From: an uncultured Myxococcales bacterium
Lineage (GTDB): Bacteria > Myxococcota_A > UBA9042
Direction of reading: 5' to 3'
Assembly (NCBI GenBank): GCA_903842345.1
Contig: CAIMLR010000023.1
Location: 124,001 to 188,000 of the forward strand
Length of the DNA: 64,000 bases
Shown here: piece by piece, positions 503 to 59,171 of the stretch
Layout: each line of letters starts with the position of its first letter
How positions within the stretch are numbered: the stretch's first letter is position 1
Program-made: the position numbers and the translations under genes
The notes under the pieces: generated by a model
Database searches by the model: none
What the model was told of the DNA's origin: nothing
The model's input: the letters and a program-made list of their open reading frames with translations, nothing else

Positions 503-546
503 CCGATTAGAAATCGGGCTGTCGTGGAATCGGGCTAACCGACAGC
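503..546 (+). promoter_or_regulatory. Leader hairpins of giant gene
   Basis: Two inverted repeats sit just upstream of the giant coding region. A 6-bp stem (ccgatt 503-508 with aatcgg 512-517) is followed by a perfect 7-bp stem (gctgtcg 518-524 with cgacagc 540-546). The second stem ends about 20 bases before the Shine-Dalgarno sequence, so it could influence translation or mRNA stability of a 12-kb message. Alternatively it is a dyad operator. No experimental inference is possible from sequence alone. Confidence 0.35.
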
Positions 547-579
547 GGTCGTATGCCCATTCGGCCTAGGAGGATTGTA

Positions 580-6500: not shown

Positions 6501-9500
6501 CCCGGAAGGCTCCATTGTCTCCCTGCAATGCGAAGCGGGTCGAACCATCACCGCGGTCGACTTCGCCAGCTTTGGCAATCCGACGGGTATGTGCGGCACG
6601 TACAAGGCCGGCACCTGCTCGGGCGGGTCCGCGCTGCAAGCGATCAAGACGGCGTGCCTCGGCAAGTCCAACTGCTCCCTCACGGTGGCGTCTTCGCTCC
6701 TCGGCGACGGCTGCAGCGGCCAGGCCAAGACGCTCGACGTCCAGGTCACGTGCATGGGTTCTGGCGGCAGCGCGCCGGGCGTCTGCCCGGGCGGCCCCGG
6801 CGACACCAATGACAACGATCCGACCATCAATCCGGCCGGTCAGGAACTCTGCGACAACATCGACAACAACTCCAACGGCCAGGTCGATGAAGGCTGCGAC
6901 GACGACGGTGACCATTTCTGCGACTCCTCGATGATCGTCCTCGGCGCGCCGCTGGTTTGCCCGGCGGGCGGCGGCGACTGCAACGACACGAGCGCCATCA
7001 TCAATCCCGGTGTCCAGGAAGACTGCTTCACGGCGGACGACGACGACTGCGACGGCAACCTGAACAACCAGGACGCCCTCAACTGCACCGTCTTCTTCAG
7101 CGACGCGGACAACGACGGCTACGGCACCAAGTCGTTCAAGTGCTTCTGCAACGCGGTCAGCCTGTTCAAGGCCAAGAAGACGGCGGATTGCGCGGACAAC
7201 AACTCGCTCATCAACCCGGGCGTTGCGGAATCCTGCAACGGCATCGACGACGACTGCGATGGCGTTGTCGACAACGGCTGCGACGGCGACGGCGACGGCT
7301 ACTGCGCGACTGGCAAGACCATCACCGCCGGCACCTCCGCGTGCCCGAACGGCGGCGGCGACTGCGACGACGCGAACTTCAACGTCAACCCGGGCAAGAT
7401 CGAGATCTGCGGTGACGGCATCGACAACAACTGCAACGGGTCGCAAAACGACTCCGGCGCGCTGCTTTGCCAGACCTACTACGCGGACGTCGACCAGGAC
7501 GGCTACGGCACGGCGAGCTCCAAGTGCCAGTGCGCACCGTCGGGCAACTTCACCGCGTCCGTGAACGGCGACTGCAATGACGCCGCCGACACGGTCAATC
7601 CGGCGGCTGCGGAAATCTGCGACGGCATCGACAACAACTGCACGGCCGGCACGGACGAGAGCTGCGACAAGGACCTGGACGGCTACTGCGACGCGTCCAA
7701 GACGCTTGTTGGCACGCCGGCCATTTGCCCGAACGGCGGCGCGGACTGCAACGACAACAACGGCGCGATCCATCCGAACTTGCTGCAAGAAGTGTGCGAC
7801 AACGTCGATGATGACTGTGACGGCGTGGTCGACAACGGCTGCGACAAGGACGGCGACGGCTACTGCGATGCGACCTACGCGATCATCGCGCCGACGCCCG
7901 CGGTTTGCTCGAAGGGCGTCAATGACTGCGACGACTACGACAACACCGTGAATCCGGGCGCTCCGGAAATCTGCGGCAACACGAAGGACGACAACTGCAA
8001 CGGCAGCCAGAACGACATCGGCGCCACCAATTGCACGAACTTCTACCAGGACGCGGACAGCGACGGGTACGGCCTGAACGCGTCGAAGTGCTTGTGCACC
8101 GCGGCGGGCGCTTACAAAGCGACGACCGGCGACGATTGCGACGACACGCAGGCCAGCATCCATCCGAACCAGGCGGAGGACTGCGCGACGCCGGCCGACG
8201 ACAACTGCAACCTCGACACCAACGACGTGAACGCCACGGGTTGCACCGTGTTCGCGCTCGACGCTGACTCCGACGGTTACGGCCTCACCGGCTTGACCAA
8301 GTGCTATTGCGTGGGCGCCAACAAGTACACCGCGCTTCCGAGCGCCGGCGCCGACTGCAATGACAACCTCGCGACCGTTCACCCGGGCCAGGCCGAGAAG
8401 TGCAACGACATCGACGACAACTGCGTGAGCGGCGTCGACGAAGGCTGCAACGACGACGGCGACTTGTTCTGCGATTCGTCGATGACCACCGTCGGCTTCC
8501 CGAACATCTGCGCCGCCGGCGGCAATGACTGCAATGACACCAACGCGGCGATCAACCCCGGCCAGGCCGAGTTGTGCGACGGCGTCGACAACAACTGCAG
8601 CAGCACGACCGACGAAGGGTGCGACGACGACAAGGACTTCTACTGCGACGCCAACATGGTCATGGTCGGCACGCCGCCCATCTGCACCCTCGGCGGCAAC
8701 GACTGCAACGACACCAACAAGAACATCAATCCCGGCCAGCAGGAACAGTGCGCCACGACGTGGGACGACAACTGCGACGGTAGCAACAATGACATCAACG
8801 CCAACGGCTGCACGGCCTACGGCGTGGACATGGACGGCGACACGTACTCGGACAAGAACAAGCCGACCACGTGCTACTGCGTCTCGACCGGCACCAACAC
8901 CGGCACCAACCCCGGCGACTGCGATGACCTGAACAACCTCGTCCACCCGGGCTTGATTGAGATCTGCGACGGCAAGGACAACAACTGCAATGGCACGATC
9001 GACGAAGGCTGCGACGATGACGGCGACCACTGGTGCGACTCGACGATGACGACGATCGGCAAGCCGCCGATCTGCACCTTCGGCGGCGGCGACTGCAACG
9101 ACAGCCTCGCTTCCATCAACCCGGGCGTGAACGAAAACTGCGCGACCGGCGCGGACGACAACTGCAGCGGCGGCATCAACGATAACGGCGCCACCGGCTG
9201 CACGACGTTCTACCTGGACAACGACGGCGACCTGTACGGCGTGAGCGTCTCGCAGTGCACCTGCACGGCGGCCGGCAAGTACGTCATCAACACCGGCACC
9301 GGCGGCCTGCTCGGCGACTGCGACGACACCAACGCCGCCGTCAACCCCGGCAAGACGGAAGTCTGCGGCGACAACGTCGACAACAACTGCAACGGCACGC
9401 AAAACGACGTGAACGCAACGGGATGCGCGCTGTTCTACGTCGACGCGGACAAGGACGGCTACGGCCCGAGCTCCGGCGGCAGCGCTTGCCAGTGCTTCGC

Positions 9501-12500
9501 GCAGGGCACGTACGTGTCCTCGCTCAGCGGCGACTGCAACGATGCCAACGCGAGCGTCAATCCCGGTCAGGTCGAGAAGTGCGACAACCTGGACAACAAC
9601 TGCGCCACCGGCACGGATGAAGGCTGCGACGACGACGGTGACAAGTTCTGCGACGCCAACATGATCGTTGTCGGCGCTACCGGCACCATCACGGCCTGCA
9701 CCTTCGGCGCGGGCGACTGCGACGACACGTTGAACACCGTCTACCCGGGCCGCGCGGAAATCTGCGACAACGTCGACCAGAACTGCAACGGCGTGAAAGA
9801 CGAAGGTTGTGACGACGACAAGGATTCGTACTGCGACAAGACCATGACGGTCATCTACGCTTCCAACACCGTCTGCCCGCTCACCACTGGCGTCGGCACG
9901 TTGGACTGCGATGACACGACCGCGAGCGTCAATCCCGCCAAGGTCGAAATCTGCGACGGTCTCGACAACAACTGCAACGGCCTCACCGACGAGAACTGCG
10001 ACAAGGACGGCGACAAGTACTGCGATTCAGCGATGCAAACGGTCGGCAAGCCGGCGGCGTGCATCTTTGGCGGCGGTGACTGCAACGACACCATCGCGAC
10101 CGGCGCGGCGATCAACCCCGGCGCGGCGGAACTGTGCGACGGCATCGACAACAACTGCGTGGGCGGCATTGACGAGACGTGCAAGGACACCGACGGCGAT
10201 CACTACTGCGTCGGCGTGGTCGTGGGCACCCCGGCGGCTTGTTCGGCCGGCGGCGGCGACTGCGACGACAGCAACGCCAACGTTCACCCGGGCCAGCCGG
10301 AGAACTGCTCCACGCAGTACGACGACAACTGCGACGGGGTGATCAACCCGACGACCAACCTGATCCTCTCGACCCGCTTCTACACGGACGCGGACGCGGA
10401 CGGCTACGGTACGGGCGCGGGCCAGACCAGCTGCTACCAGACCGGCACGTTCACCTCGCTCGTCAACACCGATTGCGACGATACCAAGGCCGCGGTCAAC
10501 CCGTCCGCCCTGGAAGTCTGCGACGGCATCGACAACGACTGCAAGAACGGCGCGGACGGCGGTTGCGACGACGACTTGGACGGCTACTGCGACGCGGCGA
10601 TGCTCATGACGAGCACGGCCCTGTGCACCAACAGCCCCAAGCCGGCCGTCGGCGTCACCAAGGCTGGCGATGACTGCGCGGATGCGGGCACCGTCAACGG
10701 CGTGGTCTCCAACTTGTTGAACCCCGGCAAGCCGGAACTCTGCAACAACGCGGACGACAACTGCAGCGGCAAGATCGATGAAGGTTGCGACGACGACAAG
10801 GACGGCTACTGCGACTCCTCGATGACCGTCAGCCTCGGCTCGCCCGCGGTCTGCCCGGCCACCGTCAGCGCCGGCGCCGGCAATGACTGCAACGACCTCG
10901 ATGCCCTGATCAATCCGGGCGTCAAGGAAAACTGCACGACGGCCTACGACGACAACTGCGACGGCAGCCTCAACGCCGCCAACGCCAACGGTTGCACGAC
11001 GTTCTATCTGGACGCGGATGGCGACGGCTTCGGCATCACCGGCAGCACGGCGTGCCAGTGCGTGGCGTCGGCTTCCACACCGTTCTACCGCGCGACGGTT
11101 GGCGGTGACTGCAATGATGCGAGCAACACCGTGTTCCCGGGCGCGACTGAAATCTGCGACAACAAAGACAACAACTGCGATGCATTCTTGCAGGTGGACG
11201 AAGGTTGCGACGTGGACAAGGACGGCTATTGCGCCCTCGGCAAGACGGTCACGGTCAACACGGTTTGCCCGAACCAGGCGACTGGCATCGGCACGGACTG
11301 CGACGACACCAACAAGTTGATCAACCCGGGTGCCACGGAAATCTGTGACAACCAGGACAACAACTGCGTCAGCGGTACCGATGAAGCGTGCAACGCCGAT
11401 GGCGACGCGTACTGCAGCTCGGCCAAGGTCACGGTCGGCACGCCGACGGTGTGCTCGTCGGGCGGTGGCGACTGCAATGACGCCAACGTCAACATCAACC
11501 CGGGCAAGCCCGAGGTCTGCAACGGCCTGGACGACAACTGCAACGGCTTGACGGACGACAGCCCGACCAACGGCACGCTGTTCTACTTCGATGGCGACCA
11601 GGACGGCGAGCCGATCAACAGCAACAAATCGCTGTGCGCGGCCTCGGGCTTCTGGAGCTACAGCGTTGCCGTCAAGGGCGCGCCGAGCGTGTATGACTGC
11701 GACGACAACGGTTTGGCTTGCGGCGCGAACTGCAACCACACGTTGACGGAGAACCGCTGCGACGGCTACGACAACAACTGCAACGCGACCGTCGATGAAG
11801 GCTGCAATGGGGACGCGGACGGCTACTGCACCTCGGCGCTGACGACCGTGAAGAACGCGACCACGGGTTTGTGGCCGGCGATCTGCACGTCAGGCGGCGG
11901 CGACTGCAACGACGGCAACAGCGGCATCAAGCCCAACGCGACGGAGCTCTGCAACAACGTCGACGACAACTGCAACGGCCAGACGGACGAGCAGGCCAGC
12001 GCCTCGTGCGCCAACCTGTTCCCGAACGCGACGGGCGTGTGCAGCGTGGGCGCGTGTGTCCAGGCGACGTGCAAGACGGGCTACGTCGACACCAACCTGA
12101 GCCTCGCGGGTTGCGACTGCTACGCGGTTGACCAGTACGAGAACGCGCAATCGCCCACGTACTTGAACAATGACTCGTGCGGTGGCGCCAGCACCAACCT
12201 CGGCACGTTGTACGACGGCACGACGGGCAACAACACGTTGAACTCGGGCACGTTGATCAGCATCACGGGCATCGTGGCGGACACCAACGACCACGACTGG
12301 TTCACCTTCTACGGTCAGGACTACGGCGACGGCAACGGCGGCTGCGATCACTACAACGTCCGCGCGGTCTTCTCGCCCGCAGTGTCCGGCGTCGTGTTCG
12401 ACATCTACCGCGGCGGCTGCCCGCCCAGCGCGACTCCGCCCGCTGGCTCCGCGGCCTTCCAGTCCGCGCCCGGTTGGCCCAATGGCGCCGGCGGCGCTTC

Positions 12501-12969
12501 GGGCGGCTCGCAGCCGTCCTCCACGCCGGGTTGGAACCAGGTCTGCTGCGCGCAGCAGGACTTCAACTGGTTCACGTACTTCAAGGACTGGCGCCCGGGC
12601 AATGGCACTGGCCACTACGAGGAATACGGCGAATGCCCGTGCTCCACGGGTGACACGTTCCAGGGCGACCCGGGCTACAGCAACGTCGGCGGCCTCTCGT
12701 ACGCCAGCGAATGGGGTTCGTACGGTTCGCGCCGCGGTCCGTGGAGCGGTTGGAGCCAGTATCTGGACCCGACGAGCAACTGGGGCGCGCCGATTCCCGG
12801 CGGCTGGGACTACACCAAGTGCATCGACGACAGCGCCCAGTACTACGTGCACATCTACCGGACCTCCGGCGTCCTGTGCGCGCAGTACCACTTGGAAATC
12901 TCCAACGGCGTCTACAACGCCACGGGCGGCGGCGGCGGCTGGGGCCAGACAATCGGCAAGAACTGGTAA
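580..12969 (+). CDS. Giant MopE-like Cys/Asp repeat lipoprotein with embedded lectin domain
   Basis: This encodes 4129 residues. The start at 580 is chosen because AGGAGG (568-573) lies six bases upstream; an upstream in-frame ATG at 553 has no such site. A signal peptide ends at a plausible lipid-modified Cys27 (MWAC, an imperfect lipobox). Domains in order: Cys-rich units of CDDGNxCTxDxC type (about residues 205-1040); a beta-sandwich like choice-of-anchor domains inserted at about 580-737; a MAM-like domain (1050-1210); a cadherin/Ig-like domain (1218-1314); a glutamine-amidotransferase-fold-like stretch (1315-1537); then 32 MopE-type units with cores such as CDGVDNNCDG (about 1694-3810), each carrying DxDxDG-like acidic loops. 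A SUEL-type galactose/rhamnose-binding lectin module interrupts the repeats at about 1962-2062. The C-terminus (about 3830-4129) is unique, Gly/Trp-rich and lacks a MYXO-CTERM anchor. Probably a secreted, disulfide- and Ca-stabilised surface adhesin or matrix protein; the role is inferred. Confidence 0.9.
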   Translation: MRNQHVGRAPRVALFAVLLVSLSMWACQDPQQEAPKDATGDFALGVDGEFGVETFALSGGNPTATFLLPTTTGNIYYLGTGGTNTIPGSPCQAGLCATTGTACTVATDCSPFIQLSVSNFPLGVGQGEIHCRVNGGATVYNSNPTALPEAFVPGKPDMVLISNIGYTQGLYTLECVLADSTGTELTNPEARTKRPVQLISDPLDPGSPKCKTDAECDDGNLCSAEICIAGKCQYQAMANCCTDDWFCAPGESCLNPNSPNSKCSACLVQGDCEDGVSCTVDACDLTGAKGKCTHTLPTDTCCVGFAKCDDGKPCTIDSCDLASSTCIHNQPAGACCQDSECPSTDPCKIGGCIGLQCRFAINGDRQDCCSDTYNNSCDDKNICTIDSCGNAQTGGWTQCKHDPNPAFPPGTCCQINPDCADADGCTQDICVNNQCQHPPVIECCASIADCNDGNICTVDTCPLNAGETSGSCVHSKTAECCNVKNDCNDGKFCTTDNCNVAQHQCLHMQTDPLCCDQDSQCTDGKLCTADLCINHGCLYPVDGNKPNCCEPGNTTCDDKDLCTIDSCKIQTACGGVGAESGDLAITGAMNFISPIGNTYQAQSFVATQSGVLTHVDLYLNTNTAIGAVVEVSLYDASPSAGGKLLGAMATQILPPSTGTFQKISVTTVGTPIVAAGTTYFLIFHANNAAITAEAYDANVTDVYPGGSSWSPGYDPTTTWTNTTADFHIATYVAPQQPACDADNNTCVHVPNGVNGCCNTPTDCDDQDCHTLDVCGSNAQCIHKPNPYTCATALDCDDGNGCTIDACDLTTGCGVCTHSAAEGCCTGDAQCDDKLVCTANKCVNNQCTFPAVPSCCTSDADALTICDDGDSCTIDYCASNQCHHTAPKNGCCKSNADCFDGNKCTADICDTTQPVGDHYTCIYTVADPNCTECTVESAVGGIDCQDNNLCTADYCDAANHCHNSAIKDCCIDKFDCDDHNDCTADYCTEQHSCIHSETQAGILLCCKPESQDVDCAYLNTECQKGVCVDSGKGNGSTACAPQDQDICTVNIGYCQSFETNTTLHGMGWNPMFADNSSTTNWSVQHTGSLGPDGYANFSWTPTKTNYGTCLQSPIIQAAGAKKITMQYDRAFEWNSNSTQITILGSLDGANADWATAQVIDSVVATNNIGPETLDVTLPTTLTGSNGLRLAFCMQGASTFDVTSFSLDNVCIVKGSKPSMVKCPVNQVVPFQNKKTIPLKAKDPDADAILSFQMVEGPSFITLSSALYFWIDKSWNSTMTINPLTTADIGTHTVKIKVTDGALYSICTFNVTVTYNGGYLVLRPTQVPTAMGDAIVAGLHAAAPTKVVQHIDDIGLYPDFAQFEAVFLVLGVYPDNFQLDDVSAAKFQTYLAGGGRLYMEGGDTWAYDTPTVLHGSFKVNGLADSVNEGIAPDLLGRSIYKDLSKLVNGVPYTYNFGFSFSDAFNNNNDSISAKDEIHRTQNMLMSNGTNDKPWVQVGHDDDAGFRTVASSIPFAGVMPGALSNDPPSAMMARILNFFNNGFIDCLGDADCDDTDDCTVDTCSKGECLYQNTCTCKSNQLLACGDTITVVTGGTGSTSSVKQYGCDTKLFYGKEMGYTFSSTTSRPATLTVSGATNPDARVFVTRTAVDVCAPLQCIAETGNGTKNFAAAANEVYYIMVDTPTVTATQLTLTVTCGAPEICNDGVDNNGNGLVDCQDLASCCGDAACGEVCDGVDNNCDGKIDEGCDDDGDGYCDVAMTVVGNPPICSAGIGDCNDTVGTIHPGQPDLCGNLKDDNCDGQTDEENSTGCTNYWVDSDKDTFGGGNPKCLCLPSANYLVTKGGDCDDNNKKVNPSLIEICGNNIDDNCNGTQNDQNAQGCTDFYLDLDGDGSGANSIGNTGKQCLCVAAGNFSASAPGDCNDADAFVHPGATEICNNVDDNCNGLLDEGCDDDVDGYCDATMGYVSIGVTSKQCGQGPEGSIVSLQCEAGRTITAVDFASFGNPTGMCGTYKAGTCSGGSALQAIKTACLGKSNCSLTVASSLLGDGCSGQAKTLDVQVTCMGSGGSAPGVCPGGPGDTNDNDPTINPAGQELCDNIDNNSNGQVDEGCDDDGDHFCDSSMIVLGAPLVCPAGGGDCNDTSAIINPGVQEDCFTADDDDCDGNLNNQDALNCTVFFSDADNDGYGTKSFKCFCNAVSLFKAKKTADCADNNSLINPGVAESCNGIDDDCDGVVDNGCDGDGDGYCATGKTITAGTSACPNGGGDCDDANFNVNPGKIEICGDGIDNNCNGSQNDSGALLCQTYYADVDQDGYGTASSKCQCAPSGNFTASVNGDCNDAADTVNPAAAEICDGIDNNCTAGTDESCDKDLDGYCDASKTLVGTPAICPNGGADCNDNNGAIHPNLLQEVCDNVDDDCDGVVDNGCDKDGDGYCDATYAIIAPTPAVCSKGVNDCDDYDNTVNPGAPEICGNTKDDNCNGSQNDIGATNCTNFYQDADSDGYGLNASKCLCTAAGAYKATTGDDCDDTQASIHPNQAEDCATPADDNCNLDTNDVNATGCTVFALDADSDGYGLTGLTKCYCVGANKYTALPSAGADCNDNLATVHPGQAEKCNDIDDNCVSGVDEGCNDDGDLFCDSSMTTVGFPNICAAGGNDCNDTNAAINPGQAELCDGVDNNCSSTTDEGCDDDKDFYCDANMVMVGTPPICTLGGNDCNDTNKNINPGQQEQCATTWDDNCDGSNNDINANGCTAYGVDMDGDTYSDKNKPTTCYCVSTGTNTGTNPGDCDDLNNLVHPGLIEICDGKDNNCNGTIDEGCDDDGDHWCDSTMTTIGKPPICTFGGGDCNDSLASINPGVNENCATGADDNCSGGINDNGATGCTTFYLDNDGDLYGVSVSQCTCTAAGKYVINTGTGGLLGDCDDTNAAVNPGKTEVCGDNVDNNCNGTQNDVNATGCALFYVDADKDGYGPSSGGSACQCFAQGTYVSSLSGDCNDANASVNPGQVEKCDNLDNNCATGTDEGCDDDGDKFCDANMIVVGATGTITACTFGAGDCDDTLNTVYPGRAEICDNVDQNCNGVKDEGCDDDKDSYCDKTMTVIYASNTVCPLTTGVGTLDCDDTTASVNPAKVEICDGLDNNCNGLTDENCDKDGDKYCDSAMQTVGKPAACIFGGGDCNDTIATGAAINPGAAELCDGIDNNCVGGIDETCKDTDGDHYCVGVVVGTPAACSAGGGDCDDSNANVHPGQPENCSTQYDDNCDGVINPTTNLILSTRFYTDADADGYGTGAGQTSCYQTGTFTSLVNTDCDDTKAAVNPSALEVCDGIDNDCKNGADGGCDDDLDGYCDAAMLMTSTALCTNSPKPAVGVTKAGDDCADAGTVNGVVSNLLNPGKPELCNNADDNCSGKIDEGCDDDKDGYCDSSMTVSLGSPAVCPATVSAGAGNDCNDLDALINPGVKENCTTAYDDNCDGSLNAANANGCTTFYLDADGDGFGITGSTACQCVASASTPFYRATVGGDCNDASNTVFPGATEICDNKDNNCDAFLQVDEGCDVDKDGYCALGKTVTVNTVCPNQATGIGTDCDDTNKLINPGATEICDNQDNNCVSGTDEACNADGDAYCSSAKVTVGTPTVCSSGGGDCNDANVNINPGKPEVCNGLDDNCNGLTDDSPTNGTLFYFDGDQDGEPINSNKSLCAASGFWSYSVAVKGAPSVYDCDDNGLACGANCNHTLTENRCDGYDNNCNATVDEGCNGDADGYCTSALTTVKNATTGLWPAICTSGGGDCNDGNSGIKPNATELCNNVDDNCNGQTDEQASASCANLFPNATGVCSVGACVQATCKTGYVDTNLSLAGCDCYAVDQYENAQSPTYLNNDSCGGASTNLGTLYDGTTGNNTLNSGTLISITGIVADTNDHDWFTFYGQDYGDGNGGCDHYNVRAVFSPAVSGVVFDIYRGGCPPSATPPAGSAAFQSAPGWPNGAGGASGGSQPSSTPGWNQVCCAQQDFNWFTYFKDWRPGNGTGHYEEYGECPCSTGDTFQGDPGYSNVGGLSYASEWGSYGSRRGPWSGWSQYLDPTSNWGAPIPGGWDYTKCIDDSAQYYVHIYRTSGVLCAQYHLEISNGVYNATGGGGGWGQTIGKNW

Positions 12970-35825: not shown

Positions 35826-37169
35826 ATGGCCAAAATCCGCGTCTGCGACATCAATGACTTCTTCACGATGACCGGCGGCGGCGTCCGTCGCTACCATCTG
35901 GAGAAGCTGCGCTACATGGCGCGGCAGGACGACGTTGAGTACCACCTGCTGGTGCCGTCGTCCCACGCTGGCGTGGAAATTCACGGTACGGCGCGCATCC
36001 ACCACGTGCCGGCGATGGCGCTCGGCAGCTCCGGATACCGGCTGGTCATCAATCCGCTGGCGTTTCGCCGCATCCTGCAGCAGATCCGCCCGGACGTGAT
36101 TGAGATCGGCAGTCCGTACACGACGCCCGATTTTGTCCGGCTCGCGTGCCTTGGCCTGCGGTCGCACACGGGCAAGAAGCCGCGCTTCGTCGGTTTTTGG
36201 CACGCGAATTTCCCGGTGACGGACGTCGGTCGCGCGTTTGGCGGGCCCAAGCGCTGGCTGGGTCGTCTGGCGGAGCGCCTCGCGTGGGCGTGGGCGCGGC
36301 GGACCTTTGGCCGCTTTGACATGACGATGGCGGCGACGCACGTGATGGTCGACCAGCTGACCTCGCACGGCGTGCAGCACGTGGCCTACACGCCGCTGGG
36401 CGTGGATACGGCGATGTTCCAGCCGCGGCGGCGCGACCCGGAGTTGCGCGCGACGTGGCACGCGGGTCCGGAAGACGTGGTGCTGTGTTATCCGAATCGG
36501 CTGAGCGAAGAGAAAAACTACAAGCCGCTGCTCGCGGCGTATGAGCTGTTGCGCGGCGCCGGTCACAAGCCGATCCTCGTGGTGGCGGGCCATGGACCGG
36601 GCGTCGCGGAAGTGAAGGCGCTGGCGGCCAAGTATCCGGAAGTGCACTACATGGGCTATCTGGAGCGGCCGATCGACATGGCCCGGCTGATGGCGTCCGT
36701 GGACGTTGTCGCGACGCTGTGTCCGTACGAGACCTTTGGCCTCGCGGCGGTGGAGGCGATGGCGTGCGGCGTGGCGCTGCTGGGCTCCGCGAAGATGAGC
36801 ATTGGCGAGCTGCTGGAGACGTGCCGCGCGGGCATCGCCCTGGAAGAAACGACGCCGGAAGCGGTCGCGGATGCGTGGCTGGAGCTGTGCAAGCCCGGGC
36901 GCGCGGAGCTGCTGGGCAAACGCGGGCTGGCGGAGAGTCAGGCGCGGTACAGCTGGAAGGCGACTTTCTCGCGGGTCGTGGATGTGTACAATGAAGTCCT
37001 GACGCCACGTCTGGATGTGGACGTGACGCGGCTGCTGGAGAGCGAGCTGGAGCCGGAAGCACCGCCGGCGCCGGAATCGCAAGCCAGTCGCGCGACGACG
37101 CGGATCCCTCGCGTTGCTGAGGGTGGAATTGACAAAATCGCGGATAACTCTAAACTTCCGCGCACCTGA
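35826..37169 (+). CDS. GT4-family glycosyltransferase
   Basis: 447 residues, GT-B fold. The N-terminus AKIRVCDINDFFTMTGGGVRRYH carries the Gly-rich loop of GT4 enzymes. The C-terminal domain has RLSEEKNYKPLLAAYELL and the E-x7-E element in YETFGLAAVEAMACG. A charged tail of about 40 residues is extra. The start at 35826 is set by homology-like N-terminal sequence; the ribosome-binding site is weak and the upstream frame is low-complexity. It is transcribed away from the esterase. The acceptor is unknown; it is separate from the main glycan operon. Confidence 0.9.
   Translation: MAKIRVCDINDFFTMTGGGVRRYHLEKLRYMARQDDVEYHLLVPSSHAGVEIHGTARIHHVPAMALGSSGYRLVINPLAFRRILQQIRPDVIEIGSPYTTPDFVRLACLGLRSHTGKKPRFVGFWHANFPVTDVGRAFGGPKRWLGRLAERLAWAWARRTFGRFDMTMAATHVMVDQLTSHGVQHVAYTPLGVDTAMFQPRRRDPELRATWHAGPEDVVLCYPNRLSEEKNYKPLLAAYELLRGAGHKPILVVAGHGPGVAEVKALAAKYPEVHYMGYLERPIDMARLMASVDVVATLCPYETFGLAAVEAMACGVALLGSAKMSIGELLETCRAGIALEETTPEAVADAWLELCKPGRAELLGKRGLAESQARYSWKATFSRVVDVYNEVLTPRLDVDVTRLLESELEPEAPPAPESQASRATTRIPRVAEGGIDKIADNSKLPRT
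37129..37156 (+). promoter_or_regulatory. Housekeeping-type promoter
   Basis: TTGACA (37129-37134), a 16-base spacer and TAAACT (37151-37156) form a good sigma-70-type promoter inside the 3' end of the glycosyltransferase gene. It would drive the Cys-rich lipoprotein gene that starts at 37247. Confidence 0.55.
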
Positions 37170-37246
37170 ACGACCGGCGAGCAGTTTGCCGGAAGTGTGT
37201 GATCCCCCAATGCCCAGGTCGACGCCTGGGCGCGAGGACTAGAAAC

Positions 37247-37819
37247 ATGAAGAAGTCTACGACCTTCAAGATGCTCGCGCTCGTGACCGCCACTGTGGCG
37301 TTCGCGGCGTGTGGTACCAAAGCCAGCACCGACGGCGGCGGCACCACCGACACGACGAGCGACGTGACGCTCCCCGGCGACTCGACCGCCACCACCGACA
37401 CCGGCGCAGTCAGCTGCCCGGCGTACGTGACCCCGACCACCGACAAGGGTTGCACCGGCGCGACCGACAAGGCGCTCGTCGCCGCGATGGACGGCGACAA
37501 GACCAAGTCCAGCGACTTTGCGGATCAGGTTCGCACGTGCACCCTGACCCACGGCTGCATGGCCAAGGGCACGGATTGCCCGAATGAAGAAGGCAAGGTC
37601 GCGATCCAGGGCCAGTGCATCGGCCAGTGCGTCGTCGACAACATGCCCGCGGCGTTTGGCAAAATCTCCGCCAACTGCGCGTGGTGCTACGGCGCGTACT
37701 CCGGTGCGTGCGGCTTCAACCACTGCCTCGCGGAATGCGCCACGGACACGCCCGAGTGCAGCCCGTGCCTCGCGAAGAACTGCGATCCGGTCCGCGATGC
37801 CTGCAAAGACGGCAAGTAA
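37247..37819 (+). CDS. Cys-rich putative lipoprotein
   Basis: 190 residues. Signal peptide with Cys22 in AFAAC as probable lipid-attachment site, then a Thr/Asp-rich linker (about 25-50) and a compact domain with 16 Cys (CTLTHGCMAKGTDC, CIGQCVVDN, CAWCYGAYSGACGFNHC, CSPCLAKNCD), probably disulfide-bonded outside the cytoplasm. ATG at 37247 has GAGGA upstream; the GTG frame at 37199 would add a pre-signal extension. It is flanked by its own promoter and terminator, so monocistronic. Function unknown; small proteins of this layout are common in myxobacteria. Confidence 0.85.
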   Translation: MKKSTTFKMLALVTATVAFAACGTKASTDGGGTTDTTSDVTLPGDSTATTDTGAVSCPAYVTPTTDKGCTGATDKALVAAMDGDKTKSSDFADQVRTCTLTHGCMAKGTDCPNEEGKVAIQGQCIGQCVVDNMPAAFGKISANCAWCYGAYSGACGFNHCLAECATDTPECSPCLAKNCDPVRDACKDGK

Positions 37820-51179: not shown

Positions 51180-53819
51180 CTACGCCTTCGCGCGCTTCCT
51201 GGGCTTCTTGCCGGTCTTGCCGCCGCCCAGCGTGCGCGCCCACAGCCACACCAGCCCGAACGCCAGCGCCGCCAGCGGCCAATCCCCGAGCATCGCGTAG
51301 ACCGTGCGGCCTTCCAGCAGCGGCACGTCGCGCATCAGCGTCTCTTCGCCCGTGAGCTTGGTCTCCGCCACGCGCCGCCCGGCGGCATCGATGAACACGG
51401 AAATGCCGGTGTTGGTCGAGCGCAGCAGCCAGCGCCGGTATTCCACCGCGCGGATCAACGCGAGGTTGAGGTGGTGCTCCGGCTCCGCGCTCTGGCCAAA
51501 CCACGCGTCATTGGTCACGTTGATGAAGACGTTGGGATCGTGCGCCGCGACCCGCTTGGCGTAGCGCGGCACCAAATCTTCGTAGCAGATCAACATGCCA
51601 ATGCGCGCGGTGCGATCCTTGTCGAGCTTGAGTTCGATCGGCGCGGTGCGCGTGCCGGACTGGAAGCGCGACGTCTCAGGCGACAGTTCGTACAGCTTGG
51701 GAAATTCCTCGCCAAACGGGATGTACTCGCCAAACATCAGCAGGAACGCCTTGTCGTAGACCGCCTCGATTTCCCCGTTTGGCCCTTGCAGCAGCGCGGA
51801 GTTGAAGCAGTCCTTGCAGCCCGCGTGGTGTGACGGCAGCTCGCTGGCGTGGGTCATCGCGCCGTAGAGGAGCGGAACCTTGAACCCGCGGCGCGCGCTG
51901 GAGCGATCGGCTTCCGGCGTCATTTCGTCGTTCAGCACGTCGTTGGGATACTGCAGATCCGCGGGCGGCAGCGGCGTCTGGCTGGCGACGATGCGCTTGG
52001 CCGAGCGCGGCGTGAGGTAGCTGGGCTGCGGCAGTTGCCCCAGAACCGCGGTGATTTCCGCCGCTGAGCCCGTGTTGATCTCCGCGAGCTTGCCCGGCTT
52101 GCCAAACCAGATGCGGCCACCACGCCCTACAACCAGGACGTTGCCGTCGGCATCGCAGCCGCCCGCGACCAGATCGACGGAAGCCAGCGGCGGCAGGAGC
52201 TGCCATTGGCCCAGCGGCAGCTTGTGGGCGAGCGCGCCGTCCTTGCCGGCCAGCCACGCGCCGCCGTCCGCGCCGAACCATGCCGCGTACCAGTCTTTGT
52301 CGCCAAGCGTGTCGACGAGCCAGCGCAATCCATCGCTGCGCAGCACCGTGCCGCCTTGACCCGCGGCGATGATGCCGTCGCCCTGCGGATCCGCCGCGAC
52401 CGTCCACAGATCCACGCGCGTCGGCGATTCCAGCTTGCGCACCTGATTGCCAACCGCCTGTACGAGCGTACCGCCCAGACCAACTGCGATCGTCAGCCCC
52501 ATGCCCGACCGCGCCGCCGCCGTCAGCGTCAGCGGGCCAAGCGCCTGTTCGGTGAGCGGCACGAGCTTGGTGCCGTCGCCCGGATCCGGCACCGGATGCA
52601 CGTCTGGCTCATGTTCCGCCACGTAGTCGACAACCGGCAGCAGCCACATCCGTCCGCTGCTGGCGATCACGAGACCGGGCGGCATGCGACCAAACGGGTC
52701 AACTGGCGGAAAAACGGTCGCTATCGCCGTTTCGCCTGACGGCATTTCCACGACTGAAGTGCCTTTGGGTGTCACGGTCAGGATGCGCTTGCCCTGATCG
52801 ATCGCCCGCCAAATGTCGCCCCGCGGCGAGGAGAGCCCGCTCAGCATCTTCACGTCGCGCGGCAAGCCGAGGCGCTGGCCGTTCTCCGCGTGCAGCGTCG
52901 TGCCATCGTGCCGCCAGATCGCGCCGCCATCGCCGACCACGAGAAAGTGGTCAAGCGTGTGCAGGATCGGCGAAAAACCATAGGGCTGATAAGCGCTTTC
53001 TGGCCAGACGATGAGCTCCGCGCCGGCCTTCTCCAGCTGCGCGGACATCTGCTGGTGCTTGAGCAGGTTGTGGCGAAGCGTGCGTGACCGCGCTTCACCT
53101 TGCAGGTATTTTGCCTCTTTTTCCCAGATGCCGACGTTGCCCTCGACCATGCCGATGCGCATCTTCTTGGCCGCGGCCTGCTGGGCGTCCACCTGGCTGA
53201 TCCGCAGCGTGCCGTACGCCCACGTCCCGCCGACGAGCGCCAGCGCGGCGAGGAGGAACAGCCAAGCCGGTTTGCGGCGGTTGAGCAGCGCGGCCGGAAT
53301 TTCTGCGATCGCCGCGTTGGCGGCGAAGATCACGGCGGAGACGAGGTAGACGCCGCCGAGATCCGCAACCTGGATCATCGGCAGTTCCCTCGACACCGCG
53401 TTGCCCATGAACCACGGGAAGATCATCGGCACCAGCGCCTCGCCGGCCCACAGGGACAGCCAGCACGCCAGCGCGCTCGGCGCTCCGCGACCCACGAGCC
53501 AGCGCCACAGCGCGAAGCCGATCGCCATCGTCAGGCCCTGGGTCAGCGCCTGCACACCCAGAATCGCGTAAGCGGGCGGCGCCGGCATGTGGCCGAACTC
53601 TTCCAGCATGACGGTCATCCAGTGGAAACCGCCCGCGTTGGTCACGGTGCCCGCGAGCAGGCCAAACCAGAAGCCCTGGCGCGGTGTGGCGGCACCCAGG
53701 GCGATGATCAGCGGTACAAAGGCGAACCACGCGAGGAAGTGGATGTTCCAGCCGGGAAACGCCAGGAAGACCAGCGTGCCCGTGACGATTGCGGCGAGGA
53801 TGGCAACGGCGCGGTTCAT
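51180..53819 (-). CDS. lnt: Apolipoprotein N-acyltransferase with inserted propeller-like domain
   Basis: 879 residues against about 510 for typical Lnt, which adds the third acyl chain to lipoproteins at the periplasmic face. N-terminal membrane helices (about 5-205) and a C-terminal helix (about 843-862) are normal. The nitrilase domain holds the catalytic Glu274 (VWPES), Lys690 (VYDKAFL) and Cys745 (ICYED). In E. coli the Glu-Lys spacing is 68 residues; here it is 416. The extra segment (about 285-645) consists of repeated blade-like units (VVGDGGAIWRHDG, AAGQGGTVLRSDGLRW, WLAGKDGALAHKLP, VVGRGGRIWFGKPG) like Ycf48-type propellers. All three catalytic residues are kept, so activity is plausible. 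The frame is continuous with no sign of an assembly join. Confidence 0.93.
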   Translation of the reverse strand: MNRAVAILAAIVTGTLVFLAFPGWNIHFLAWFAFVPLIIALGAATPRQGFWFGLLAGTVTNAGGFHWMTVMLEEFGHMPAPPAYAILGVQALTQGLTMAIGFALWRWLVGRGAPSALACWLSLWAGEALVPMIFPWFMGNAVSRELPMIQVADLGGVYLVSAVIFAANAAIAEIPAALLNRRKPAWLFLLAALALVGGTWAYGTLRISQVDAQQAAAKKMRIGMVEGNVGIWEKEAKYLQGEARSRTLRHNLLKHQQMSAQLEKAGAELIVWPESAYQPYGFSPILHTLDHFLVVGDGGAIWRHDGTTLHAENGQRLGLPRDVKMLSGLSSPRGDIWRAIDQGKRILTVTPKGTSVVEMPSGETAIATVFPPVDPFGRMPPGLVIASSGRMWLLPVVDYVAEHEPDVHPVPDPGDGTKLVPLTEQALGPLTLTAAARSGMGLTIAVGLGGTLVQAVGNQVRKLESPTRVDLWTVAADPQGDGIIAAGQGGTVLRSDGLRWLVDTLGDKDWYAAWFGADGGAWLAGKDGALAHKLPLGQWQLLPPLASVDLVAGGCDADGNVLVVGRGGRIWFGKPGKLAEINTGSAAEITAVLGQLPQPSYLTPRSAKRIVASQTPLPPADLQYPNDVLNDEMTPEADRSSARRGFKVPLLYGAMTHASELPSHHAGCKDCFNSALLQGPNGEIEAVYDKAFLLMFGEYIPFGEEFPKLYELSPETSRFQSGTRTAPIELKLDKDRTARIGMLICYEDLVPRYAKRVAAHDPNVFINVTNDAWFGQSAEPEHHLNLALIRAVEYRRWLLRSTNTGISVFIDAAGRRVAETKLTGEETLMRDVPLLEGRTVYAMLGDWPLAALAFGLVWLWARTLGGGKTGKKPRKRAKA

Positions 53820-54414: not shown

Positions 54415-55452
54415 ATGACAATGCCGATCCAAGAGCAACAACTGCGCGTGATGAGCCGATGGCGTTGGCTGTTGATCAGCTACCTGTGCCTGCATGCGTT
54501 GGGCGCGTACGCCGTCGAGCCGGAGAAGGCGGCGGCATCGCTGGCGCGGCAGGCTGGGCAGGTTGAGGAAAGCGGTGATGCGGCGCGGGCGGCGGAGCTG
54601 TATCTTGAGGCGTTTCAGACCGATCCGACCCAGCCGAACTACCTGTACGCCGCGGCGCGATCGGAGATGACGGCCGGCAAGACCGCGAGCGCGGAAGAGC
54701 ACTTTGAGCAGTTTCTGGGTCTGGCAGATGCCGGCTCGGATCGCGCGGACAAGGCGCGGGCGTATCTGGCGGATCTGCGCGGGAGTCGCGCGGAGTCCAA
54801 GGAAAGTGGCGCCGATCGCGCGGCGGCGGCGGGCAAGTGGCGGGACGCGTCCAAACTGTACGAAGAGCTGTGGGTGCAAATGCCGACGCGCTGGTCGGCG
54901 CTGTTCAAGGCGGGGCAGGCGGCGCAGCAGGCGGGCGACACAGAGCGCGCGACGGAGTTGCTGCGGCAGTACCTGCGCGACGCGCCGAAATCGGCGGCGG
55001 ATCGGCCGGAGGCGGAGGAGCGGCTCAAGCAGATGGCCAGCCACGGCGGCGAGGGTCAGGCGGAAGCTGGCGTGACAAAAGGCGGTGACACCGAGGGCGG
55101 CAACGGCGCGCGCATCCTGGGATGGACGCTGCTGGGCACGGGCATCGCGATGCTGGGCGGCGGCGCGGGCTTGCTGCTCTATGGCGTCAGCGAGGAACGG
55201 ACGCTGAATCAGGACATGAAGCTCGTCGACGGCAACGTGACCGCGGACATGACGCATGCCCAGGCGCAGGCGCGGGCGGACAGCATCGGGCTGCACCAGA
55301 CGCTGGGCTTGGGCCTGACGGCGGCTGGCGTCGCGGCGGCGGGCATTGGCACGTGGCTTGTGCTGCGCGAGCCGGAGAAGCCGACGACCTCGCGGTTGAG
55401 CGTCGCGCCTGGACCCGGCTGGACCGGCATTTCGCTCGGATGGCGGTTCTGA
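54415..55452 (+). CDS. TPR-containing exported membrane protein
   Basis: 345 residues from ATG 54415. A TTG at 54370 has a good GAGG six bases upstream and would give 360 residues, so the start is ambiguous. A signal peptide or anchor (LLISYLCLHALGAYA) is followed by TPR-like helical repeats (about 40-200; AAELYLEAFQTDPTQPNYLYAAA, ATELLRQYLRDAP), a Gly-rich linker and two membrane helices near the C-terminus (about 225-250 and 285-305) before a short tail. Its stop and the next start overlap as TGATG, so it is coupled to the large Cys-rich lipoprotein gene. Possibly an assembly or anchoring partner of that lipoprotein. Confidence 0.8.
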   Translation: MTMPIQEQQLRVMSRWRWLLISYLCLHALGAYAVEPEKAAASLARQAGQVEESGDAARAAELYLEAFQTDPTQPNYLYAAARSEMTAGKTASAEEHFEQFLGLADAGSDRADKARAYLADLRGSRAESKESGADRAAAAGKWRDASKLYEELWVQMPTRWSALFKAGQAAQQAGDTERATELLRQYLRDAPKSAADRPEAEERLKQMASHGGEGQAEAGVTKGGDTEGGNGARILGWTLLGTGIAMLGGGAGLLLYGVSEERTLNQDMKLVDGNVTADMTHAQAQARADSIGLHQTLGLGLTAAGVAAAGIGTWLVLREPEKPTTSRLSVAPGPGWTGISLGWRF

Positions 55453-58400
55453 TGCGGCAACTTGGCAAAATCGCAGCGATGGGATGGGCGGCGTTCGCGT
55501 TCGCCGGCTGCACCGTCGCCATTCCGGACGCCGCGCATTTTCCGGAAGGGCGGGACATCCACGTCGAGGACGCCGCACCGGACACGGCGGACAGCGGTGG
55601 CAAGGACGCCAAGGCCGATGCCCTGGACGCCAAGGAAGTTGCGGGTACGGACGCGATCGACGTCGCACCCGATGCGGCCGACGCAGACGGCGATGCGGCC
55701 TTGCCGGATGCGGCGACGGCTGATGCGCCTGCAGATGTCGCGGACGCAGCCACGGCGGACGCTGCCGATGGCGATGCGATCGACGACGCCGCGCCCGACG
55801 CCAGCGACGACGTGGCGATGGACGCGGTCGACGTGGGCCCAAGCTGCACCCCCAGCCAATGCGACGACGGCAACCCGTGCACTTTTGACGATTGCGACGC
55901 GGGCAACCAGTGCGTGCACGCCAACCTCGGTTCGACGCCGTGCCCCGACGATGGCCTCCCCTGCACCGGCGACGCGTGCCTCGCTGGCGTCTGCACGCAC
56001 ACGACGCTCCTGCCCGGTTGGTGCATCATCGACGGCGTCTGCTACGCCAGCGGCGCCATGACCGCTGACAACTGCGCGACGTGCGCGCCTGCGACAACGC
56101 CCATCGCGTTCACGCCCTTGCCCGATACCGCGACTTGCACCGATGGCACCGCATGCACGGTCGCCGATCACTGCCAAGGCGGCGTTTGCCTCCCGGGCAG
56201 CGCGACAACCTGCGACGACGGCAACGCATGCACCGCCGACCTCTGCGACCCCACCAACGGCTGCAGCAATCCAAACCTGGACGATGGCTCCGGCTGCCCA
56301 GCCAGCGGCGTATGCCAATTGCCCGGCCAGTGCGTCAGCGGCGCGTGCACGAGTTCGCCCAAGCTGTGGTCGACCTCCTTTGACGGCGGCACAGGCGGCG
56401 CCGATCGCTTCAACGCCGTCGTGACGACCGCGAGCGGCCAGATCATCGCGGTTGGCGCGCGGGCGGCCAGCGATGGCTTTCAGGTGGGCTGGGCGATGCA
56501 CTTGGACGCCGCCGCGGACGTGATCGACTATCTGCCGGCGCTCGTGGACGCCGCTGGTGATGCCCACTACAGCAGCGTGGCGGTCGCCAGCGACGGCGGC
56601 CTGGCCTTGGGCGGCGCGACGTCGACGGACGCGATCGTGCGGGTGATCCACGCCAGCGGCGTGATGCAACAGGTCCAGCCGTTCAGCGCGTATGGCGCCG
56701 GCGACGTGACGACGATTGTCGCGCAGGGTACGGGGTGGCTGGCGCTGGACGGCAAGGGCCATGTCGTCCGCTTGTTGGACACCGGCGCGACGGCGTGGGC
56801 AGCGACGGTCGATGGCCTGGGCGCGAGCGTCCTCCACGGGATCATCGGCATGGCCGATGGCGGCGCGATCGCCGTCGGTTCCTGCGCAGGTCTGAGCGTT
56901 GATTCCGCCACCGCGTTGGCCGTGCGGTTCTCGGCCAGCGGCGCCATCGTTTGGGAGCGCGCTTTTGGCAACGCCGGCAGCGCGTTTGCCGCCGTGACGC
57001 TCGGCGCGGATGGCACCGTCTTCGTCACCGGTGCGCGGCCCAACGCCACGGCGACGCAGCAATGGTTCGGCCACCTGAGCGCCGATGGCCGCTGGCTGGG
57101 CGACGCGACGTGGTCCTTGGGCGCGCTGACGTCGATCTTTGGTGGCACGGTCGCAGCCGACGGCACCTGGCGTCTGCTCGGCAGCGACGGCACGCACGTT
57201 TGGCAGGGCGCGTTTGATACCGCCGGCAACTTGTTGTGGCAGAAGCCCCACGACGCCGGTGTTGCGCACGGCATGGCGCTCCTCGCGGGCGGCGGCGCGG
57301 TCATCGTCGGCGAGACGCCCGCACCCGCCGACGGCCTGGTGCTGCGCGTCGATCCCTGGGGTGAAGGCAAGTGTGCGGTCTCGCAGCTTTGCAGCAACCT
57401 CACGTTGGCCGCGTGCGACGACGGCCTCGCATGCACCGCTGACCTCTGCGCCGCCGGCGGCACCTGCAGCCACCCTCCGCTCGGTGCGGCCACGTGCGAC
57501 GACGGCAACCTCTGCACGGTTGTCGACGCTTGCGCGGGCAGCCAATGCACCGCCGGCGTCGACGGCCTCTTTGACGGCACCGACGCCAGCGTCAGCCAAT
57601 GGTCGCTCATCGCCGCCCGCAGCGACGGCGGCGCGGTGGTCGCCGGTACCGCAGGCCTCGTCGCGCGCCTCGACGCCGCCGGAGCGACCCTCTGGAGCCA
57701 CTACATCATCGGCGGCGCGGTCAGCGACGTCGCCGCCCTGGCCAACGGCTGGGTCCTCGCGCTGCAGGGCGACGTCGGCGGCACACTCCTTCGTCTTACG
57801 GACACCGGCGTCGCGGTCGGCGCGGGCATCAACGTCGACGGCGCGAGCGGCGGCAAATCCCGGGCGATGGCCGTCCTCAGCGATGACACGGTCGTCGTCG
57901 TGGGAACCGCCTCCGTAGGCACGCCTGGCCAGACCGCATTCGTCGCGCACTTTGACGCCGCGTGGACGGGCTCGGCGACGACGCTCCCCGGCTCGTTCGG
58001 TCTGTCACAAGGCCTTGCTGTCGCCGCGTCGGCCAAAGGCGGCTGCGGCGTGCTCACCGTGGAAGGCGCGGTCGCCAAGATCCACCGCTTGAACGCCGCG
58101 ATGGCCGAGAAGTGGAGCACGCCGCTCAGCGTGACCGCGGAAAGCGCGTTGGCGGCGATGCCCGACGACGGCTGGTTGGTCGCGGGCTTGGGCCCCAAGG
58201 GCCTCGCCGTGGAGCGGTACGGCCCCGACGGCGCGTTTGAATTCGCCGTCCAATGGCCGATGCCGGGCCTGACCGACGTCCGCGCAGTGACCGTCCTCCC
58301 CGACGGCACCAGCGCCGTGGCCCTGGTCCGCCTTTCCGGCGGGTTCAGCCAAGGGGGCGTGGCGCGCCTTGGCCCGCTTGGCGGCTTGCTCTCCATCCAC

Positions 58401-59171
58401 TGGGGCAGTGACGGCTCGCAGCTTTTTGACATCGCGACGGCGGAGCGACCCAGCGGCGTTTGGGCAGTCGGCAGTCGATCCGGCGGCGGCTGGTTGCGGC
58501 GCACCGACAGCCACGGCGGCCAGACCTGCGCGGCGAGCGGCGGCTGCGTCAGCGAGAGCCTGATTTGCGACGACGGCAATCCGTGCACCAACGACGGCTG
58601 CGCTGCGGGTCAATGCACGATCACCGCGCCCGCCGCGCCGGGCACCTGCCTGGACGGTGGCGTCTGCTCCGCGGAGGGCGCTTGCCCGCTGCTTGGCACC
58701 TGCGGCGACGGCAAATGCAACGTCAAGGAGACGAGCACCTCCTGCGCCAGCGACTGTCAGGCCAACTGCGACGCCATGAACTGCGACGACGGCGACCCGT
58801 GCACCGTGGATTTCTGCCTGGCGGGCAACTGCGCCATCGGCGGCGCCCCCGACGGCACGCCGTGCGCGCTCGGCAAGGCATGCGGACTCGGCCAGTGCGT
58901 CGTGCCGGGCTGCGGGGATGGCACGTGCCAATCCGGCGAGACGGCGACAAACTGCCCGGGCGACTGTCCGCTCTGCGGCGACGGCATCTGCGGCGCGGGC
59001 GAGAACAACCACGTCTGCCCCGCCGACTGCGCCAAACCGGCCAGCGGCTGCCAGAACCTGTGCGGCTGGAAGAGCCAGAAGCCCGGCGGTGGCGTTTGCT
59101 GGTGCGATCCCAACTGCACGCCCGGGCCTTTTGGCGACTGCTGCGACGACAAGACCACCTTTTGCCCCTGA
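55452..59171 (+). CDS. Large Cys-rich lipoprotein with propeller-like domains and somatomedin-B-like C-terminus
   Basis: 1239 residues. Signal peptide with lipobox FAGC (Cys at about 19), an Ala/Asp-rich stalk (about 25-135), CDDGNPCTxDxC-type Cys units like those in the giant protein (about 135-300), a Trp-poor beta-repeat region resembling delta/kelch-type propellers (about 305-635), more Cys units (about 645-705), a second beta-repeat region (about 710-1025), Cys units, two or three CGDGxCxxxE repeats (about 1080-1195), and a C-terminal eight-Cys module (CQNLC, CWCDPNC, DCC) with somatomedin-B spacing. A surface lipoprotein built from adhesive modules is the likely type. The start ATG overlaps the TPR stop. 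Confidence 0.9.
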   Translation: MRQLGKIAAMGWAAFAFAGCTVAIPDAAHFPEGRDIHVEDAAPDTADSGGKDAKADALDAKEVAGTDAIDVAPDAADADGDAALPDAATADAPADVADAATADAADGDAIDDAAPDASDDVAMDAVDVGPSCTPSQCDDGNPCTFDDCDAGNQCVHANLGSTPCPDDGLPCTGDACLAGVCTHTTLLPGWCIIDGVCYASGAMTADNCATCAPATTPIAFTPLPDTATCTDGTACTVADHCQGGVCLPGSATTCDDGNACTADLCDPTNGCSNPNLDDGSGCPASGVCQLPGQCVSGACTSSPKLWSTSFDGGTGGADRFNAVVTTASGQIIAVGARAASDGFQVGWAMHLDAAADVIDYLPALVDAAGDAHYSSVAVASDGGLALGGATSTDAIVRVIHASGVMQQVQPFSAYGAGDVTTIVAQGTGWLALDGKGHVVRLLDTGATAWAATVDGLGASVLHGIIGMADGGAIAVGSCAGLSVDSATALAVRFSASGAIVWERAFGNAGSAFAAVTLGADGTVFVTGARPNATATQQWFGHLSADGRWLGDATWSLGALTSIFGGTVAADGTWRLLGSDGTHVWQGAFDTAGNLLWQKPHDAGVAHGMALLAGGGAVIVGETPAPADGLVLRVDPWGEGKCAVSQLCSNLTLAACDDGLACTADLCAAGGTCSHPPLGAATCDDGNLCTVVDACAGSQCTAGVDGLFDGTDASVSQWSLIAARSDGGAVVAGTAGLVARLDAAGATLWSHYIIGGAVSDVAALANGWVLALQGDVGGTLLRLTDTGVAVGAGINVDGASGGKSRAMAVLSDDTVVVVGTASVGTPGQTAFVAHFDAAWTGSATTLPGSFGLSQGLAVAASAKGGCGVLTVEGAVAKIHRLNAAMAEKWSTPLSVTAESALAAMPDDGWLVAGLGPKGLAVERYGPDGAFEFAVQWPMPGLTDVRAVTVLPDGTSAVALVRLSGGFSQGGVARLGPLGGLLSIHWGSDGSQLFDIATAERPSGVWAVGSRSGGGWLRRTDSHGGQTCAASGGCVSESLICDDGNPCTNDGCAAGQCTITAPAAPGTCLDGGVCSAEGACPLLGTCGDGKCNVKETSTSCASDCQANCDAMNCDDGDPCTVDFCLAGNCAIGGAPDGTPCALGKACGLGQCVVPGCGDGTCQSGETATNCPGDCPLCGDGICGAGENNHVCPADCAKPASGCQNLCGWKSQKPGGGVCWCDPNCTPGPFGDCCDDKTTFCP

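Follow-up and report, generated by a model that had tools for sequence, protein, structure and literature searches.

Within a 64,000-nucleotide stretch of DNA from an uncultured Myxococcales bacterium (hereafter the window), a single gene encodes an Lnt-family protein whose nitrilase domain is split between the catalytic glutamate and lysine by a seven-bladed beta-propeller. This propeller-split Lnt is a real and conserved architecture, apparently undescribed: in the literature searched, which gave partial coverage, no paper was found on a propeller inserted in Lnt or in a nitrilase. The nitrilase fold thus tolerates a whole propeller adjoining its catalytic Glu. The protein is referred to as Lnt2, a name coined here for the subfamily to which it belongs, and its layout is given in Table 1.

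Table 1. Layout of the lnt2 gene and its product in the window (AF2, AlphaFold2)
Feature	Residues	Window positions	Strand	Basis
lnt2, Lnt-family protein with intradomain propeller	879 in total	51180..53819	-	single ORF; Pfam/NCBIfam; AF2; Foldseek to Lnt 8aq2/5n6h, TM (target) 0.72-0.79
Membrane domain, LNT_N match	14-170	53310..53780	-	Pfam PF20154, E 2.4e-22
Nitrilase domain part 1, stops just past catalytic Glu274	~216-281	52977..53174	-	AF2 strands/helices 219-271; CN_hydrolase
Arm-7 motif VEGNVGIWEKE, Lnt2-specific, replaces the E. coli stretch with W237	225-235	53115..53147	-	alignment
Catalytic Glu274 (E. coli E267)	274	52998..53000	-	alignment
Predicted seven-bladed beta-propeller insert	~283-600 (strands 292-594)	52020..52973	-	AF2; Foldseek; profile matches; repeat test; homologue model
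Lnt2 linker loop, also present in insert-free relatives	601-648	51876..52019	-	alignment
Nitrilase domain part 2	649-835	51315..51875	-	AF2; CN_hydrolase
Catalytic Lys690 (E. coli K335)	690	51750..51752	-	alignment
Catalytic Cys745 (E. coli C387)	745	51585..51587	-	alignment
Predicted C-terminal transmembrane helix	847-864	51228..51281	-	AF2

The AF2 model of the window protein, built with 20 related sequences, has a mean pLDDT of 86.8 and a pTM of 0.85, and shows the Lnt fold intact around a propeller inserted directly after the catalytic Glu, in the loop between nitrilase strand beta2 and helix alpha2. The N-terminus of the insert supplies strands B-C-D of blade 1 (292-311), blades 2-7 follow (325-581), and strand A, which completes blade 1 in a velcro closure, comes from the C-terminus (589-594). 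Because both ends of the insert contribute strands to the ring closure, the linkers emerge next to each other, and the domain is suited to insertion into a loop. A homologue with 33% identity (L007), modelled separately, likewise has seven blades (pLDDT 88.2, pTM 0.85). Against the PDB, Foldseek returned Lnt structures over the whole chain and then seven-bladed propellers, including the designed 7bid (TM by target 0.79) and Ycf48 (0.65-0.68; 5oj3, 0.65). A profile of 27 inserts matches Ycf48 structures with an E-value of ~1e-6 (5e-7), with WD40 designs scoring better, and the Pfam family PSII_BNR is matched by four of the 27 inserts (best E 1e-7), the window insert not being among them. Blade-versus-blade similarity lies about 5 SD above shuffles in the window protein and about 18 SD above them in a distant homologue (L105/L121). 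As modelled, the insert is a Ycf48/WD40-type seven-bladed propeller within an intact Lnt fold. The initial annotation had described repeated blade-like units similar to Ycf48/propeller repeats, and this description was borne out by the repeat test and the insert-alone profile search. In both predicted models, the nitrilase core closes around an insert that folds as a domain, here a closed ring, which is the point it had suggested checking by structure prediction. Its limits for the insert (about residues 285-645, some 350 residues) did not hold, since a loop at ~601-648 is common to insert-free relatives; the foreign part is therefore about 320 residues rather than 360.

The catalytic residues of Lnt are retained. 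LNT_N and CN_hydrolase matches are above the curated cut-offs, and CN_hydrolase and the lnt model TIGR00546 (217 bits versus a cut-off of 132.9) each match the protein in two stretches. The motifs WPES (272-275), YDK (688-690) and CYE (745-747) are present, and aligning the protein with Lnt of E. coli K-12 (L181) confirms that Glu274, Lys690 and Cys745 had been correctly identified and numbered, with a Glu-Lys spacing of 416 residues versus 68 in E. coli. Equivalents of E267, N314, K335, E343, C387, Y388 and E389 are all found in the window protein, and these seven residues are kept across insert-bearing members with one exception, leaving aside an N-D difference at another site. The position of W237 is occupied by Glu in the window protein and is also variable in other Lnts. 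The insert is not an independent gene or a read-through product, as the frame is single and open in homologues, nor is it an ordinary loop of the family, as Glu-Lys spacings in insert-free Lnt2 proteins are 56-199.

A propeller-bearing Lnt frame occurs in about 45 of the 52 genomes examined from this uncultured Myxococcota class. The Lnt survey across Myxococcota suggested at the outset thus showed the propeller to be class-wide. Within the genus every one of the five genomes has it, as do 20 of the 22 genomes of the family, the remaining two (67% and 81% complete) yielding no convincing Lnt2, and most other families of the class also carry it. Outside the class, no insert was seen among the genomes inspected in a phylum sample of 189 genomes (class members included), in which spacings were computed for selected loci (60-199) and other matches were judged only by frame length and by the gaps listed for them. 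As the genomes are draft MAGs, an assembly or gene-calling artefact could be suspected. However, independent genomes from many families show this architecture at 33-91% identity, each time in a single open frame. Misassembly is rejected on account of these independent homologues, and any artefactual origin is extremely improbable; the prospect, raised initially, that close relatives would lack the insert and that the contig is misassembled here is likewise excluded by them. One shorter form was observed at L009:5930-8155 (a record shared with L136), where the insert has only about four blades and the Glu-Lys spacing is 280, reflecting either a deletion or an assembly fault.

Most members of the class also have an ordinary Lnt, with frames of ~510-700 residues (~540 being typical) and spacings of 68-83. 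In the tree, the proteins with the insert fall together with Myxococcota Lnts that lack it, jointly forming Lnt2, apart from the ordinary Lnts of the class. Lnt2 proteins share the arm-7 consensus VE-x-[ND]-[VI]-G-[IV]-[WF]-E-K-E at the stretch containing W237 in E. coli; almost every Lnt2 carries the motif, and it is absent from each of 17 Lnt1 proteins. Loop 234-236 of arm 7 in E. coli Lnt responds to the lipoprotein peptide (PMC10313180), and W237 (PMC3850990), Y388 and E389 were reported to be essential in that enzyme. The genome of the window encodes two Lnt proteins, two full-length Lgt copies with a weak third match, and one LspA. The full-length Lgt copies lie at C20:104913-105704 and C39:162555-163457, and one of them adjoins LspA.

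Not every Lnt2 has a propeller. Two genomes (G024 and G047) have Lnt2 without it, one (G044) combines a propeller-bearing copy and a propeller-free one (L140, L143), and another (G043) has two copies with it (G043:C830, G043:C897). Three insert-free genes (L141, L142 and L143) nest among insert-bearing ones in the tree, which implies that the propeller is dispensable in some lineages. It may have arisen once or several times: the best tree splits the insert-bearing rows, requiring five changes, but the AU test does not reject a single clade in which the three insert-free members are nested (p 0.47). With regard to a source, L214:445-6721 in the genome of the window (C39) encodes, in succession, a 1429-residue protein bearing six TIG domains and a 649-residue Ycf48-like propeller protein, and open frames of comparable size recur among the propeller matches of the class. 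TIG/Ycf48-like propeller proteins of this type are possibly the kind of source from which the Lnt insert came.

The propeller is a constrained domain under purifying selection, less constrained than the catalytic core. Across five congeneric genes, dN/dS is 0.13 for the propeller, 0.10 for the membrane domain and 0.04-0.05 for the nitrilase parts. Conservation is 2.23 bits at propeller positions versus ~3.4 for the catalytic domain. A conserved ligand face was sought by loop conservation and none was singled out (top loops 2.18 bits, bottom loops 1.97). The most strongly conserved loop of the insert, SPRGDIWR (330-338), is on the enzyme-facing side by topology.

Based on these observations, Lnt2 may be a working second lipoprotein N-acyltransferase that carries a predicted periplasmic docking propeller and is more selective than the ordinary Lnt, a reading to which we give a probability of about 50%. 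By analogy with Lnt biochemistry, Lnt2 would carry out ping-pong acyl transfer at the periplasmic face. The propeller is expected to project into the periplasm above the nitrilase domain with the A-B/C-D side facing the enzyme and the D-A/B-C side outward, so that by topology it would sit near the portal where the lipoprotein tether leaves. There, it could dock either a partner protein or some of the diacylated lipoproteins and, together with the remodelled arm 7, would make Lnt2 choosier than the ordinary Lnt of the same cell. Docking of a substrate or partner is a common role of such propellers, and this usual role makes a binding platform the preferred interpretation; that the propeller confers selectivity for acceptors is our hypothesis. 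The initial annotation had likewise proposed an extracytoplasmic platform that could gate which lipoproteins are acylated. Its split enzyme with a propeller and a full catalytic set was corroborated by structure prediction, profiles and conservation, the extracytoplasmic side follows from Lnt topology, and any gating is hypothetical. In favour of this docking acyltransferase are the catalytic set, the predicted Lnt fold with its seven-bladed propeller, the match of the insert to Ycf48, purifying selection, class-wide presence, the separate ordinary Lnt and the arm-7 motif. Against it count the lack of a single conserved face, the replacement of W237 and the nested insert-free genes, as well as the finding that the second Lnt of Streptomyces scabies was unable to replace the first (PMC3850990).

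The greater variability of propeller positions relative to the catalytic domain, the location of SPRGDIWR on the side facing the enzyme and the loss of the insert in some relatives would also suit a structural module with no role in substrate choice, such as a tether to envelope machinery (e.g., Lol) or a stabiliser of a nitrilase domain that has lost its alpha2 helix. However, insert-free Lnt2 proteins retain the same core, meaning that the propeller is unnecessary for folding, and purifying selection at a dN/dS of 0.13 suggests more than a spacer. We regard such a scaffold as rather unlikely, with perhaps one chance in four.

The neighbouring genes raise another possibility. A gene for a YegS-type lipid kinase lies directly before lnt2 in at least nine loci with the insert (L121, L123, L125, L127, L128, L131, L135, L137 and L139) and in seven without it, many loci having AGPS-like and Fe-S genes upstream. 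Specifically, in families other than that of the window, genes for an FAD enzyme of AGPS-like type and for a GlcF-like Fe-S protein are often found further upstream of the YegS-lnt2 pair, and two loci (L014 and L007) have an extra open frame between, resembling a GlcE-type FAD half; the GlcE-like and GlcF-like identities of these small partners are our own reading of the sequences. An HHHG-type motif is found in the FAD enzyme, whose best match of solved structure is Dictyostelium ADPS (E 4.5e-49). The order AGPS-like/GlcF-like/YegS/lnt2, with lnt2 as the last gene, was observed as a conserved operon in several Myxococcota families (L014:993-7959; L007:2120-8562; L137, L131, L123, L139, L147, L148 and L150). 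Since the YegS/AGPS linkage occurs with and without the propeller, it concerns Lnt2 itself. Lnt2 could thus be chiefly an acyltransferase of a lipid pathway, acting with the alkyl-DHAP synthase-type FAD enzyme, its GlcE-/GlcF-like partners and the kinase, with the propeller holding the acceptor or a pathway partner; the altered peptide-contact arm would fit this role. However, the tested members of the window's family mostly lack true AGPS and YegS, yet keep lnt2 with its propeller, and lnt2 is unlinked to these genes in families f5 and f12. In the genome of the window no YegS match was found and the AGPS-like enzyme is represented only by distant relatives, so that Lnt2 is independent of them there. 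The TIGR00546 score well over the cut-off and the retention of the complete Lnt catalytic set also weigh against a chiefly lipid-directed enzyme, which we consider improbable, at about one in five.

A more far-reaching reading would accommodate either type of acceptor. Lnt2 and its propeller may form a dedicated acyltransferase channel in which the propeller would capture one acceptor class, either certain lipoproteins or a lipid connected with the operon of the AGPS-like enzyme and the lipid kinase, and pass it to the active site, giving these bacteria two separate, differently targeted acylation routes in one envelope. This is a speculative proposal that we would expect to fail in about three cases out of four.

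In the window itself, lnt2 is near a sulfite reductase gene and NamZ. Upstream of lnt2 and divergent from it lies a 1349-residue protein (55122-59171, plus strand) that contains Dicty_CTDC repeats and whose start region is lipobox-like. A run of 4152 codons without a stop (511-12969, plus strand), coding-like in its base composition, indicates a very large protein. The window had initially been described as rich in large lipoproteins, a description that a crude lipobox scan did not support, flagging one large ORF (55089-59171) and one small (37154-37819). A third match, inside Lnt2, is no lipobox, since it falls within the membrane domain.

Compared with known Lnt proteins (E. coli 5n6h, P. 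aeruginosa 5n6m/8aq2, TIGR00546), Lnt2 has the same membrane and nitrilase domains, the E-K-C triad, and the N314, E343, Y388 and E389 equivalents. It differs in having a propeller of ~320 residues that separates the catalytic Glu from the Lys, with replacement of the helix alpha2 region, in the arm-7 GIWEKE in place of the W237 stretch, and in the presence of an ordinary Lnt alongside. The beta2-alpha2 region that forms the insertion site was already noted to be shortened in Lnt versus soluble nitrilases (PMC5500890). High promiscuity towards lipoprotein acceptors has been ascribed to E. coli Lnt (PMC10313180). One lipoprotein acyltransferase may here have acquired a built-in docking platform, and a class-wide, selected domain within the catalytic fold, beside an ordinary Lnt, would provide a natural case for studying acceptor choice by removing one domain. 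With Ycf48/HCF136 (PSII_BNR) and WD40-like propellers, the insert shares seven blades of ~40 residues and G-x-G-G/T-[IVL] turns; unlike Ycf48, it is located inside an integral membrane enzyme, is permuted with the enzyme in the A-B loop of blade 1, and has no link to photosystem II. Mycobacterial BCG_2070c/Rv2051c and Lnt1/Lnt2 of S. scabies offer precedents for multidomain Lnt and for paired paralogues of which one is subsidiary (PMC3850990). However, those are end-to-end fusions or plain paralogues, whereas in Lnt2 the additional domain lies inside the nitrilase fold.
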